Source: a virus
Length of the DNA: 44,108 nt
Strand: one strand, 5' to 3'
IMG/VR virus record: IMGVR_UViG_3300031673_000125
Location: 1 to 44,108 of that record
Below the pieces are notes generated by a model. That model had not been told where the DNA came from, searched no databases, and saw nothing but the letters and a program-made list of their open reading frames with translations. This document shows positions 5,533 to 14,465 of this stretch, one piece after another. The translations under genes were made by a program, and so were the position numbers. Within the stretch, counting starts at the first letter, position 1, and each line of letters starts with the position of its first letter.

Positions 5533-5543
5533 TCGGAGCAGAA

Positions 5544-5957: not shown

Positions 5958-6096
5958 AGGTAGCTACGAAATTCAAGTTACCCTATAGCAGGTGAACACG
6001 CCTAGACACGTTAACCTTTTCATTTCGGGACCTTCAGACACCAGTACGCAGGTCCGTATAGAATCTGGTCACACAGGCCAGGAGTGAGGACAGCCC
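5958..6096 (+). other. 139-base intergenic region with weak promoter-like site
   Basis: This is one of the two longest gaps in the window. It contains a 6-bp inverted repeat (GGACCT at 6028-6033, AGGTCC at 6050-6055) and a poor sigma70-like pair: TTCAGA at 6033-6038 and TATAGA at 6057-6062, 18 bases apart, each 4 of 6 to consensus. A Shine-Dalgarno (AGGA, 6087-6090) for the next gene lies at the 3' end. A promoter here is possible but weakly supported. Confidence 0.25.
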
Positions 6097-7942: not shown

Positions 7943-10252
7943 ATGGCCATTGAAATCACCACCCAGGTGACTGAGGCAGCACGGGTATATGCAATCCGTG
8001 TTACGCTGAAATCACTTGACCCCATCACCGACCCGACACTCTATGTTCTAGAAGACAGTGTTAAAGCAGTAATCCTGGCGAAGGCAGCGCTGCCTGCAAA
8101 CACAATAGTTCTTGGGTCGAAACTCCTACAAGAAGGGTATATAGGGGACATCCAGTTCTACATCATCCTGATGACGCTGGAAGAGGTGCCTGCAACTGTT
8201 ACCGCACATACGCACGACTTCAACACCGTCTTCATGCCGCTGCGAGAATCGTACCGCGACGGACCGTACATCGACCTCGATCCCAACCTCGGTCCATTAG
8301 ACATCTGGGCTGCGCAAGGAACAGTAGACTACCTCCGCATCCGCGACGGAGGAACTACCTTCCTGGAGGTTAATCAGGAAGGCCAGCTGCGTCTTGGTGG
8401 GCATGCTGAGTTCACCACTGACACCACCTACGATATTGGATCGCTGGACGACGGCGTGACGCTACGCAGACCTCGAGACGTCTACGTGGGAAGGGACACC
8501 TGGACAGCACGCGACGGATATTTTGGTACCTCTGCCCAGAGTCCCACCTACAAGTATTCCCCGCAGATGTTGGTCACGCCAAGCACGGACCCACTCGACC
8601 GGCTGATGTACTGGAACCTGGGAGACAACCAGGTACACGTGTGGGACGGTTCCTCCGACTACCCACTCGGTGGAGGGGGAGGTCCTGACTACGACGGCGT
8701 AATTTTCATTGCTGATCTTACGCCAAATGTAGGCAACATCGACATCACCCTCGCAGAAAATGGAACCAGGGTAGCTAGTGCAGCAGCGAGTCCAGACGTG
8801 ACCATTATCACGGTCGACGTCTTCGCCTACACAGGACACGTGCAGGTGAGACCCGACGTCAACGTCAACGGTAGTCCTGTTGTGTGGAGTACCTCTCCGA
8901 ATCAGAACCCAACCGCGTACCATGGGAGCGTTGACCTCACAGGTTTCACGCTTCCATACACAATCACGGCAACGCACCAGGATGGCAACTCATACTCCAT
9001 CATTGTCACTCAGGATGCGAAGCCGCTGATAACCACCCTCGAGTTTACCGGTGGCTACCCAGGCTCGCAGACGGAGCTCAAAGCTGTCGACACCTTCGAC
9101 ATCAATATTCAGACTGACCTCAACTTTGTGGCTGTAGAAGTTGAAAACAGCGGTGCCTGCGACGCGATGAGCTTTGGTGTAGCTTCTACTAGCAACTACA
9201 CCTTCACGGCAAATATTGCAGACAGAGGCACCACAACGCAAGCGCTTCCTGCGCGGGTACGCGTACAGCGTCCCACAGGGACGTGGTCCGACTGGGTCTA
9301 CACCAACGCAGGTGGAAGTACCGTAGACGGCACCAACCTGGTCAACCTGAACAACCTCTATCCTACTGTCGGAGCGATGAGCCAGGTAAGCATCACGTAC
9401 CCGGCAACGCAGCAAGCTATAAAAGATTCCGAGACAGTTACGGTAAACTCGATTTGTCTCAACTTCGACACCATCGCCTACTCGTCTCCAACTGCGGAAC
9501 TGTCAATCCCAAGTCCGACAACGTACGCTGCAAGCAAAGCTGGGGTTGCTCGAGTTTCTGGTGGGTACAACATCACCACCGACAACTACAGGATTGTTGC
9601 TAACAGGGCTGCCAACAATGCAACGACAACAGAAGAGGTTGTCGTCTACATCGCGCACGATTTTGCGACTGTGCAGATGACGGAACCCGCAGCCAGACTA
9701 CGCACTGGTGGCAACGATGGAACGAGCGCGCAGAACCACACAATCACGCTGACTGCCAACCAAAGGCTGATCTCAGCACCCACCATCGCAGCCCCACCTG
9801 TTGGAGGAGGTACCTGGCAAGGAGGCGGCTTTGCTGGTGGACCCACAGTGTGGACTCGAGCTCTGCAATGCCACGACAACGACACGGTGGGCACGTACGC
9901 CTATGGCACCCTAGCTGCAACAAACTTGGCGAACAGGGTGACAACTACGTACACAGGAGACAGCAACTACGTCATAGGAGGGTTTGTCTCCCGCACGGTT
10001 GTGCTGGCCGCATTTGCCAACCAGGTTAACTTCAACGCAGCTGTGGCTGACTATGGCAAGTGTACTTTGGTGTGGGCGTTCAAAGCACTTCCGAACAAGA
10101 GGGCGTTTAATACAACGACAACTCCTGACCCAAACAGCTGGTGCTTCGCTGGCACCATCGGAGTGAGTCCCACTATCGCGAGGATACTGGACACTGCGGC
10201 AACAGGGTCCAGTTCAAATACTACGAACGTAACGGTTGAGGAGACTGTCTAA
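7943..10252 (+). CDS. Large fibre/baseplate-attached protein with Ig-like domains
   Basis: This 769-residue protein starts at ATG 7943, with no clear Shine-Dalgarno in the 19-base gap. Residues 1-95 form a small alpha/beta domain. Residues of about 100-240 contain the phage fibre pattern LRIRDGGTTFLEVNQEGQLRLGG then TYDIGSLDDG and RDVYVGRDTW. A Gly-rich hinge (PLGGGGG) follows. The rest is Thr, Val and Asn rich with repeated 80-100 residue beta segments, as in Ig-like adhesion domains. It ends in TAATG, overlapping the next start by one base, so translation is probably coupled. Likely a surface-exposed virion adhesion protein; the ligand is unknown. Confidence 0.65.
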   Translation: MAIEITTQVTEAARVYAIRVTLKSLDPITDPTLYVLEDSVKAVILAKAALPANTIVLGSKLLQEGYIGDIQFYIILMTLEEVPATVTAHTHDFNTVFMPLRESYRDGPYIDLDPNLGPLDIWAAQGTVDYLRIRDGGTTFLEVNQEGQLRLGGHAEFTTDTTYDIGSLDDGVTLRRPRDVYVGRDTWTARDGYFGTSAQSPTYKYSPQMLVTPSTDPLDRLMYWNLGDNQVHVWDGSSDYPLGGGGGPDYDGVIFIADLTPNVGNIDITLAENGTRVASAAASPDVTIITVDVFAYTGHVQVRPDVNVNGSPVVWSTSPNQNPTAYHGSVDLTGFTLPYTITATHQDGNSYSIIVTQDAKPLITTLEFTGGYPGSQTELKAVDTFDINIQTDLNFVAVEVENSGACDAMSFGVASTSNYTFTANIADRGTTTQALPARVRVQRPTGTWSDWVYTNAGGSTVDGTNLVNLNNLYPTVGAMSQVSITYPATQQAIKDSETVTVNSICLNFDTIAYSSPTAELSIPSPTTYAASKAGVARVSGGYNITTDNYRIVANRAANNATTTEEVVVYIAHDFATVQMTEPAARLRTGGNDGTSAQNHTITLTANQRLISAPTIAAPPVGGGTWQGGGFAGGPTVWTRALQCHDNDTVGTYAYGTLAATNLANRVTTTYTGDSNYVIGGFVSRTVVLAAFANQVNFNAAVADYGKCTLVWAFKALPNKRAFNTTTTPDPNSWCFAGTIGVSPTIARILDTAATGSSSNTTNVTVEETV

Positions 10253-11716: not shown

Positions 11717-13249
11717 ATGGCTGTCAAAATTTGGAATAGAGCAATGTTCCGACTCGTCGTACCAGGAGTGGGTGGACGCCCACTCGGGGTAGGCGAAGCC
11801 ATGGTGTACCCGGATGCACAGTACGACGCATTGGTCAACACTGAAGGAGTTAGAAGGCTACTAATTCAGAAGTACATTAAAATACAGAATCTGGATGACA
11901 TGGACGTCCAGTTCGCAGATGCATGGAATGAAACACCTCATCTGACCCTGGGAACAACCCAGTATTGGATTGACTCTACTGGAGTAACACGTCTAGTAGA
12001 TGGAACGCCTACGTCGGATACAGACGGAGAGCCTGTAGGCTCAGGTGGCGTCGATCCCGCTGTGCCCATCTACTCCGACACAATGCCTATCTATGGACGT
12101 ACGTTCGGGCAGATGCGTTCCTCTTTCTTCAACGCGTTCCACAACAAAGCTATGGGTACGTGGGATACGCTGTACAAATATTGCTACTGGAGTTTGGGGT
12201 ACACAGGAGGTCCTTGGACCCCCTATCAAAAGTTTGACACACAAGATGACTTCTTCACCTGGATGGAGACTGTGATTCCATCGGTTGGTGGTGTGTACGA
12301 TGTTAGTGCGCTGAGCTTCCGCACAGAGGAACGAATAGATCCAAGCGACTCCTTCCCGCAAAAACTGATACATCGAAACTCATTGATGGCTTCTATTCTA
12401 GGGAAGTACAAATACAACACACGCAGACAAGCGTATGGAGTCTCGAGTGCATTCAACGCTCCTCAGTACTACACCAACTACTACGGAGAACTAGCACAGC
12501 GATTTGTACAAGAAGACACTGGAGCACTCCCCAGTGTCAATGAGGATGGCGCCATCTGGCACACGCTCAGAACACGTAGCAAGCATGGCCTTCCTCAAGT
12601 TGGTTCATTCGTTGATGTCAATCTAAATATGCGTGGTGCAGCGTGGGACGCCTCTGCAGTCAGTTGGGTGTCACCGGCACCCCCTGGTAACTATGTGGTA
12701 CAGGCTCCCTTCCTGCTCATAGAATGGCGCAGAAGGAAAGTTCTGCAGATCATGGCGCCACCTGATGCGAAGGACTGGGGGCTCGCCGCAACTGAAGCCG
12801 TCTCCGCTATAGTGTTCCCAGTGGTGCTTAGTGGACGCTGGCGTGCGTACGTCATGTACCCGTACAGCTACGACTCCTTCGTGACTGAGAAGTTCGACCT
12901 GTCTACGTATGAGCTCGTAATGAAGCTCGTATACCGAAATACCTCGAGACCACAGTACGAAGTTCTTCCGGACCCGTGGTACACAGTAGGAGACGACGGT
13001 GAGCACACCATGTGGTCCCACTGGAAGGTGGTAACACCTGCCCCCTTGTGGCTCGAGTCTGTCCTGGCCAGAAGGGCTCCTGGATCAACTGGACGCAACG
13101 TAGACGCGAACACGTTCCCCGACAAAGTATTCGTTGCTAGAAGAAATAAATCTACGGGCGTGCGATCTTCCTGGTATCCACTTTACTCTATAAAGAGAAG
13201 GATACCATATGCACCGTACAGGATAATGCCTGCGCAGTATCCGTACTAA
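11717..13249 (+). CDS. Fibre protein with shared N-terminal virion-anchor module
   Basis: This is a 510-residue protein. Residues 1-115 match in pattern the N-terminus of the 13707 protein: a 'YD' helix, then I..QNLDDMD, then WNETPHLTLGTTQYWIDSTG, then a DG/G-rich hinge. A shared N-terminal module on otherwise different proteins is typical of fibres that plug into the same baseplate socket. Residues of about 120-500 are unlike the neighbour and are rich in Tyr, Trp and Arg (for example YYTNYYGELAQRF and FLLIEWRRRKVLQIM), so they are probably the receptor-facing or catalytic part. No hydrolase motif was recognised. It is followed by the hairpin array at 13262-13390. Confidence 0.65.
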   Translation: MAVKIWNRAMFRLVVPGVGGRPLGVGEAMVYPDAQYDALVNTEGVRRLLIQKYIKIQNLDDMDVQFADAWNETPHLTLGTTQYWIDSTGVTRLVDGTPTSDTDGEPVGSGGVDPAVPIYSDTMPIYGRTFGQMRSSFFNAFHNKAMGTWDTLYKYCYWSLGYTGGPWTPYQKFDTQDDFFTWMETVIPSVGGVYDVSALSFRTEERIDPSDSFPQKLIHRNSLMASILGKYKYNTRRQAYGVSSAFNAPQYYTNYYGELAQRFVQEDTGALPSVNEDGAIWHTLRTRSKHGLPQVGSFVDVNLNMRGAAWDASAVSWVSPAPPGNYVVQAPFLLIEWRRRKVLQIMAPPDAKDWGLAATEAVSAIVFPVVLSGRWRAYVMYPYSYDSFVTEKFDLSTYELVMKLVYRNTSRPQYEVLPDPWYTVGDDGEHTMWSHWKVVTPAPLWLESVLARRAPGSTGRNVDANTFPDKVFVARRNKSTGVRSSWYPLYSIKRRIPYAPYRIMPAQYPY

Positions 13250-13261
13250 GAACAAAAGGAG

Positions 13262-13345
13262 CGCCGCCCTGGTAGTAGGGGTGGCGTAATGAGCCGCCCT
13301 GGTAGTAGGGGTGGCATATAAGGCGACCCTGGTAGTAGGGGTCGC
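13262..13345 (+). repeat. Three tandem RNA-hairpin repeats, 30-bp period
   Basis: Three copies of a 23-base hairpin start at 13263, 13293 and 13323, exactly 30 bases apart. Each has a 7-bp stem (an eighth pair would be a wobble) closed by a purine-rich loop, GGTAGTA. Copies 1 and 2 are identical. Copy 3 differs at three positions, all in the stem: a C-G pair becomes G-C, and a G-U wobble becomes A-U. The stem is preserved while its sequence changes, which argues for selection on RNA structure. Linkers of 7 bases (GTAATGA, ATATAAG) separate the hairpins. No U-run follows, so they are not simple terminators. Confidence 0.85.
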
Positions 13346-13390
13346 TTACTGATGCGTATCGACTCTGTGGGTGCTCATCAGTAAGCGACC
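13340..13390 (+). promoter_or_regulatory. 15-bp stem-loop that competes with the third hairpin
   Basis: GGTCGCTTACTGATG (13340-13354) is perfectly complementary to CATCAGTAAGCGACC (13376-13390), with a 21-base loop between. The 5' arm includes GGTCGC, which is also the 3' arm of the third hairpin. Its partner GCGACC is thus present twice, at 13323-13328 and 13385-13390, so the two structures exclude each other. The stem ends 5 bases before the AGGAG (13396-13400) of the next gene. This has the form of a translational or transcriptional switch; the trigger is unknown. Confidence 0.7.
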
Positions 13391-13406
13391 AACTCAGGAG
13401 ATTATG

Positions 13407-13682
13407 ATGCCCCCAGTAAATGTTGACGTGGGCGGATTCAGTACAGGTACGAAGCACAGCGCAACGATTCGGCTACAGAGCCCGGACCAGCTGGATGTTA
13501 TCGTCACGGCCAACGGAACCACCACTGTACTTGACATCGTCAAAGCGGCAGTAGCGGAGATGGGCAGCGTGGTACTGCCAGACCCAGTACCTGCCAACTG
13601 GTCGGAGCTCGCGGTGATGCCTGCAAATGGTGTCGAGGTCACACTGTCCATTGGCGTCCTCGTCAAACACACAGAAGCATAA
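13407..13682 (+). CDS. Small hypothetical protein downstream of the hairpin switch
   Basis: A 91-residue protein. I prefer ATG 13407 because AGGAG (13396-13400) is 6 bases upstream; ATG 13404 is 3 bases away and also possible. A GTG at 13371 would extend it through the 15-bp stem and is unlikely. It has no Cys and a long Ala/Val/Thr-rich run, with no signal peptide. It is followed after 24 bases by a fibre gene. Expression could be set by the alternative RNA structures just upstream. No family was recognised. Confidence 0.6.
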   Translation: MPPVNVDVGGFSTGTKHSATIRLQSPDQLDVIVTANGTTTVLDIVKAAVAEMGSVVLPDPVPANWSELAVMPANGVEVTLSIGVLVKHTEA

Positions 13683-13706: not shown

Positions 13707-14465
13707 GTGGCTATCCGAGTAACCAGTCTGTTGATGACGAGTCCGGTTGCATTACCGGCACCGGCTAGCTTTAACCTGCGTCCCAGGCAGACTAAAGTAT
13801 TTCAGTACGTCGAGTATGACAAGTTTATTAATGACCCTCGTGTAGCTGACTACCTGCGAAAGAACGTCATATACGTCGAGAACCTCGACGATGTTGGTGG
13901 AGGCACATTCGTATCACAGTGGAACCAGGAGCCAAAGCTCCGACTGACTCCGTACGTTTTCTGGGTCGACGGTCTTGGTTTTTTCCGCATGAAGAGTGGC
14001 GATCCAACATTCGATTTGGATGGCGTAGTGATTGGTCCTGGTGCGGGCGGACCTGTACCTCCACATGGTCCAACACACACATTCCTAGGAACAGACCCAG
14101 TACCTCAGATCGAGGTCTTAGAGGGCTCGTGGAACTGCACAGTCGCAGAAAGCGTGCTCGATGCAGTGTTTGAAAGTGTCGCAGGTACCGTCAGGAAAGC
14201 AAATGCGAGCTCCGACGTCAAGATGCCTTGCATAGGTATTATCATCAGTAAACCTACTCCTACTACCTGTATCATCGCCAGATCGGGAGAAGTGAGTGGT
14301 TTCGTTGGCCTCACTGTCGACGTACCATACTTCGTAGGATTAGTAGACGGCACTATCAGCACCACAGTTCCGACAGGCGGTGGACGAGTAGTGCAGCGAG
14401 TCGGGTACTCAAAGACGAACACCACTCTAGTTATTGAGCTAGGGACACCAACAAAACGTGTGTAA
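13707..14465 (+). CDS. Modular fibre protein (shared N-terminal anchor and C-terminal domain)
   Basis: This 252-residue protein starts at GTG 13707 with GGAG (13695-13698) 8 bases upstream. Residues 1-110 are the same module seen in the 11717 protein (VIYVENLDDVGG, then WNQEPKLRL, then FWVDGLGFFRMKSGDPT). A linker follows (PGAGGPVPPHGPTHTFLGTDP), of the kind that joins fibre segments. Residues of about 146-245 match the C-terminal domain of the 10252 protein (IGIIISKPTPTTCII ... SGEVSGF ... GYSKTNTTLVIE). It therefore unites two modules found singly in neighbours, which is good evidence for domain shuffling within this locus. Role: virion fibre or attached decoration. Confidence 0.65.
   Translation: MAIRVTSLLMTSPVALPAPASFNLRPRQTKVFQYVEYDKFINDPRVADYLRKNVIYVENLDDVGGGTFVSQWNQEPKLRLTPYVFWVDGLGFFRMKSGDPTFDLDGVVIGPGAGGPVPPHGPTHTFLGTDPVPQIEVLEGSWNCTVAESVLDAVFESVAGTVRKANASSDVKMPCIGIIISKPTPTTCIIARSGEVSGFVGLTVDVPYFVGLVDGTISTTVPTGGGRVVQRVGYSKTNTTLVIELGTPTKRV

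Follow-up and report, generated by a model that had tools for sequence, protein, structure and literature searches.

A conserved array of three hairpins and a rival long stem precede a small gene in a phage tail operon

The DNA analyzed here (hereafter the window) is the whole stretch covered by positions 1–44,108 of IMG/VR record IMGVR_UViG_3300031673_000125, 44,108 bases in length. A tail sheath, a DNA polymerase, a topoisomerase II and a dCTP deaminase are among the proteins it encodes. The sheath gene lies at 7943–10252, and residues 254–685 of its product are 40–42% identical to the sheaths of PhiKZ-like giant phages; about 250 additional N-terminal residues were observed next to this PhiKZ-type part. 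In the tail operon around the element studied here, gaps between genes are no longer than 24 nt, with two exceptions of 139 nt (5958–6096) and 157 nt (13250–13406). The latter is on the plus strand between a 510-aa gene (11717–13249, +), for which no family match was found, and a 91-aa gene (13407–13682, +), and it holds an array of hairpins. The structure predicted for the 139-nt gap is not unusual (z = −1.1), and the array gap is the sole long, highly structured gap of this tightly packed operon. AlphaFold models of the two flanking proteins have pLDDT values of 33 (510 aa) and 47 (91 aa), and the 510-aa protein has an arginine-rich C-terminus. The initial annotation placed the array ahead of a small gene, as is the case, and within a fibre locus; no fibre family was matched, however, and the family match nearby belongs to the tail sheath gene.

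The array consists of three hairpins on the plus strand, and the 30-nt units begin at 13263, 13293 and 13323, a period of exactly 30 nt. Each hairpin has an 8-bp stem, a U-G closing pair and the loop GGUAGUA. Hairpin 1 (13263–13285) has the stem GCCGCCCU/GGGGUGGC, extendable to 10 bp, with its loop at 13271–13277, and hairpin 2 (13293–13315, loop 13301–13307) is identical to it over all 23 nt. Hairpin 3 (13323–13345, loop 13331–13337), with the stem GCGACCCU/GGGGUCGC, differs from them at two stem pairs, where C-G is swapped to G-C and G-U is replaced by A-U, so that pairing is kept. The 3′ arm of hairpin 3 (13340–13345) also belongs to a long stem (13340–13390, +), in which 13340–13354 pairs with 13376–13390 over 15 bp and 13356–13360 pairs with 13370–13374 over 5 bp, the two parts being separated by one C/U mismatch and capped by an apical loop at 13361–13369. 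The rival partner of the shared arm is a GCGACC at 13385–13390 that is identical to the 5′ arm of hairpin 3 (13323–13328). The features described in the initial annotation, from the exact period to the doubled GCGACC, were all recovered at the coordinates given there. A search within 100 nt across the window gave no perfect inverted repeat of 12 bp or longer besides the 15-bp stem. Folding of 13250–13420 gave a minimum free energy of −79.8 kcal/mol, compared with −56.9 ± 4.0 kcal/mol for dinucleotide shuffles, none of which was as good (0/200, z = −5.8). A second purine-rich, Shine-Dalgarno-like stretch, AAAAGGAG, was observed at 13254–13261, directly 5′ of hairpin 1, and a start codon is absent at the usual distances; the stretch has a counterpart, GCGAGGAG, in the relative described below (L035, about 5533–5540), and may serve as a ribosome standby site or a protein contact.

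When viral contigs were scanned for the loop core, one independent homologue that bears the array emerged, between the same genes, in a phage contig of 349,793 bp. Whereas the sheath of the window has a PhiKZ-type part, this contig gave no match to RNA polymerase family PF00562. The 510-aa, 91-aa and sheath proteins of the two phages are 70%, 63% and 83% identical, respectively, and at the DNA level the leader is 77% identical, compared with 66–68% for the flanking coding genes. The layout is the same, with three hairpins at 30 nt followed by a long hairpin, and folding is again stronger than in shuffled sequence (z = −4.4). The end of the long hairpin lies 5 nt upstream of the Shine-Dalgarno sequence of the 91-aa gene in both phages (AGGAG at 13396–13400, +, in the window), and 16 nt (window) or 17 nt (homologue) from the start codon.

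If the hairpins are under functional constraint as RNA, substitutions are expected to preserve pairing. The initial annotation looked to homologues for such covariation, and it is present: among the six hairpin copies, three from the window and three from the homologue, 48/48 stem cells are paired, full swaps included. One stem pair takes the forms C-G, G-C, A-U and U-G, and a second is either C-G or U-A. No copy departs from the loop GGUAGUA or from the four loop-proximal stem pairs, and the other pairs vary with pairing kept. The covariation score of the hairpins was matched in 2/500 shuffles, a figure that is indicative and not a P value, as the copies are related to each other. On the opposite strand pairing falls to 77% of the stem cells and is absent throughout at the position closing the loop, because 11 of the 48 cells are G-U pairs; the selected form is thus RNA of the operon's sense strand.

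Two other explanations of the repeats were considered. In a noncoding gap, directly repeated units with inverted symmetry could form an element acting at the DNA level, either iterated palindromes for a DNA-binding protein, for replication or for packaging, or a hairpin belonging to a diversity-generating retroelement. The G-U cells would be mismatched in duplex DNA as on the other strand, no reverse transcriptase was found in the records searched, and the 3′ end of the 510-aa gene has no second copy in the stretches searched; we consider an element of this kind very improbable. Alternatively, the repeat could be coding on the minus strand, where both phages have an open frame across the array that specifies PYYQG every 10 residues (13188–13457, −, in the window). 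Yet the loop core is without synonymous change in six copies, whereas substitutions in the stems change the encoded residues; beyond the loops the frame shows poor similarity, and it would run antisense to two conserved genes. A coding origin can hardly be credited, and the antisense frame seems to follow incidentally from the conservation of the loops.

The homologue also bears on the two rival folds. In the relative the right arm of hairpin 3 has changed from GUCGC to GCUGC (columns 23 and 24). Where the window has GCGAC in both partners of this arm, the relative has GCAGC in the hairpin partner and GCGGC in the rival partner of the long stem, so that the altered arm still pairs with both, one pairing as U-G. 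Since an arm changed at two places has kept both of its rival partners, both folds are conserved, and mutually exclusive folds are shared by homologues, as seen in two sequences. For hairpin 3 and the long stem together, 10 substitutions fall in stem columns; pairing survives in four double changes and is lost at one pair (G-C to A-C, in the long stem of the homologue), with P of about 0.001 under a simple random, transition-only null. Taken by itself, the long stem shows weak and nonsignificant covariation (120/500 and 63/500 shuffles), because only two independent sequences are available. Folding with and without hairpin 3, as the initial annotation had proposed, gave two folds in both sequences, with the long-stem fold ahead by about 4–5 kcal/mol (4.7 kcal/mol in the window and 3.7 kcal/mol in the relative). 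P for the shared 6-bp extension is about 0.002–0.004 in the window. Since the long-stem fold wins in both sequences, hairpin 3 would last only with the help of a bound partner or of kinetics. Modeled barriers out of the hairpin fold are about 4–7 kcal/mol. In predicted folds of the growing transcript of the window, hairpin 3 forms first and is lost once the 3′ arm of the long stem is complete; in the minimum-energy folds for the relative, it appears and disappears before that same point.

We then considered how either fold could act on the 91-aa gene. Modeling of both sequences gave no consistent pairing of the Shine-Dalgarno sequence by either fold, and the modeled opening of the Shine-Dalgarno sequence and start codon shows little and inconsistent difference between folds. 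The cost of opening positions −20 to +13 is 14.4 kcal/mol in the unconstrained ensemble vs. 9.6 kcal/mol with the three hairpins held for the window, and 13.9 vs. 11.6 kcal/mol for the relative, a modest difference with the same sign in each sequence. No intrinsic terminator or attenuator (a GC-rich hairpin followed by a U run) was found at the element. The models therefore give no support to a plain on/off mechanism in which the ribosome-binding site is hidden, and in the absence of a terminator and of consistent Shine-Dalgarno pairing, with a modest opening effect, tuning or processing fits better than an on/off lid.

Processing might even be the whole function. The hairpins could be a structural insulator or processing site that protects the transcript or lets it be cut, with no regulated switching and with the rival pairing as a by-product of copy turnover. 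The long stem offers the about 20 bp or more of duplex typical of RNase III-type sites (15 + 5 bp around one mismatch), a long near-perfect duplex adjoins a ribosome-binding site in an operon, and the long-stem fold is thermodynamically favored in both phages. Turnover of units is also suggested by the hairpins themselves: hairpins 1 and 2 of the window (13261–13311) best match hairpins 2 and 3 of the relative (L037, 15330–15380), with 92% identity over 51 nt, and array units seem to turn over while their count remains three. This explanation, however, accounts neither for the invariant loop and closing pairs of six copies nor for the fact that both rival partners pair with a common arm that has changed. 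We regard it as possible, if on the unlikely side. No RNase III gene was found in the phage records searched, including the relative's 350-kb contig, and a host RNase III would thus have to act on the duplex, whether the array is a processing site only or also a switch.

The three identical loops could instead mark a small RNA or decoy that titrates a protein or a host RNA, its position before the 91-aa gene being incidental. There is precedent in PhiKZ, whose UTRs yield structured RNAs of about 100 nt, found by Grad-seq (PMC8545117). Our element resembles these as structured RNA in a giant-phage UTR, but no sequence relation to them turned up in the phage collection. A decoy of this kind we consider improbable, as the long stem keeps its distance from the Shine-Dalgarno sequence in both phages and no promoter-like or terminator-like site was found at the interval, the promoter search covering the sigma-70 consensus only. 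As candidate partners for kissing-loop pairing, sites complementary to the loop (CTACTACC) occur in nearby genes, but they are few and their conservation is not clear.

The distribution of the array was followed by sequence, pattern and protein searches. Neither the window interval nor the homologue matched Rfam, at the gathering cut-off or at E-values up to 5, and no sequence match to the element was found in the phage collection or in plasmids, in agreement with the initial view that no described element is like it. The exact 15-mer loop core occurs in 30 stretches of IMG/VR, with the array in the homologue (L013) only; the remaining stretches are without the array and look like chance matches. 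Similarly, a paired-loop pattern search of IMG/VR and prokaryote genomes returned nothing besides L013 that pairs as an array with this stem, and one candidate (L107) was rejected as a simple direct repeat. A hairpin model run across five phage records found no further copies. Searches guided by the 510-, 91-, 252- and 769-aa proteins identified the one array-bearing relative and three related loci without the array (L161/L038, L162 and L164). Homologous phages lacking the array had been named at the outset as potential evidence against a functional element; yet these three loci, in which the neighboring 252-aa gene is present, also lack both the 510-aa and the 91-aa gene, and neither an array copy nor a full-length relative of either protein was found elsewhere in their records. 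Array and flanking genes are jointly present or jointly absent in 5 related loci, and since all three are missing together, the array travels with the two genes. Positions 11717–13682 of the window (510-aa gene, array and 91-aa gene) can be viewed as a cassette that is missing from the three related phage loci. The N-terminal ~105 aa of the 510-aa protein are related to the 252-aa protein (gene at 13707), and this common N-terminal domain suggests gene duplication in the tail region.

Known systems share parts of this design. Phage T7 has RNase III intercistronic processing sites, in which long hairpins lie between operon genes, as does the long hairpin here; to our knowledge, these sites include no repeated-loop array and no rival hairpin. 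Riboswitches and tandem-aptamer leaders present two mutually exclusive folds before a gene; unlike them, the element here has no aptamer family match, no terminator and no clear hiding of the ribosome-binding site. The T4/RB69 gene 43 translational operator is a protein-bound hairpin located some 40 nt 5′ of the start codon, a single hairpin of 16–18 nt with sequence overlapping the ribosome-binding site (PMC3014915). As in that operator, a phage mRNA hairpin with fixed loop and upper stem and a variable lower stem lies 5′ of a start codon, and the conserved loop and closing pairs stand upstream of the ribosome-binding site. In contrast to it, the element here has three hairpins that share one loop and recur every 30 nt, together with a distinct long stem and strand exchange.

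Taken together, these observations make it very probable that the array is a real, conserved and so far undescribed cis-acting RNA element. Of the two-state RNA switch proposed in the initial annotation, a functional structure, invariant loops (likely a binding site) and two rival folds are backed by a homologue with matching changes. The conserved RNA structure is well supported, and a switch function is what we infer from it. The best-supported mechanism, which two sequences lead us to hold at about even chances, is a hairpin array read by a protein, with a regulated swap of partners. The element would act in cis between cistrons in the mRNA of a large tailed phage. An RNA-binding protein, of phage or host, may read the repeated loop and the loop-proximal pairs, much as T4 DNA polymerase reads the gene 43 operator. 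In the absence of the protein, hairpin 3 would arise first during transcription and then be displaced by the long stem of about 20 bp; with the protein bound, hairpin 3 would be held, the long stem shortened to about 14 bp and GCGACC freed. Strand exchange would thereby lengthen or shorten a duplex that ends 5 nt before the ribosome-binding site, and the output of the 91-aa gene could be tuned relative to the operon through RNase III-type processing or stability and through the free space 5′ of the ribosome-binding site.

Structured regulatory RNAs in the structural operons of large phages are little described. The element is short and clonable, so that both a phage RNA-binding protein and the strand-exchange mechanism are directly testable, and the invariant loop GGUAGUA could be the bait with which the binding protein is found. 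A bolder and rather doubtful proposal is that the element represents a new class of phage RNA switch, in which one protein cooperatively binds the three-hairpin array and the last hairpin is the switch arm, exchanging partners with the long hairpin located at the ribosome-binding site. If this were true, the occupancy of the array would be counted and converted into the expression of a tail-region gene.
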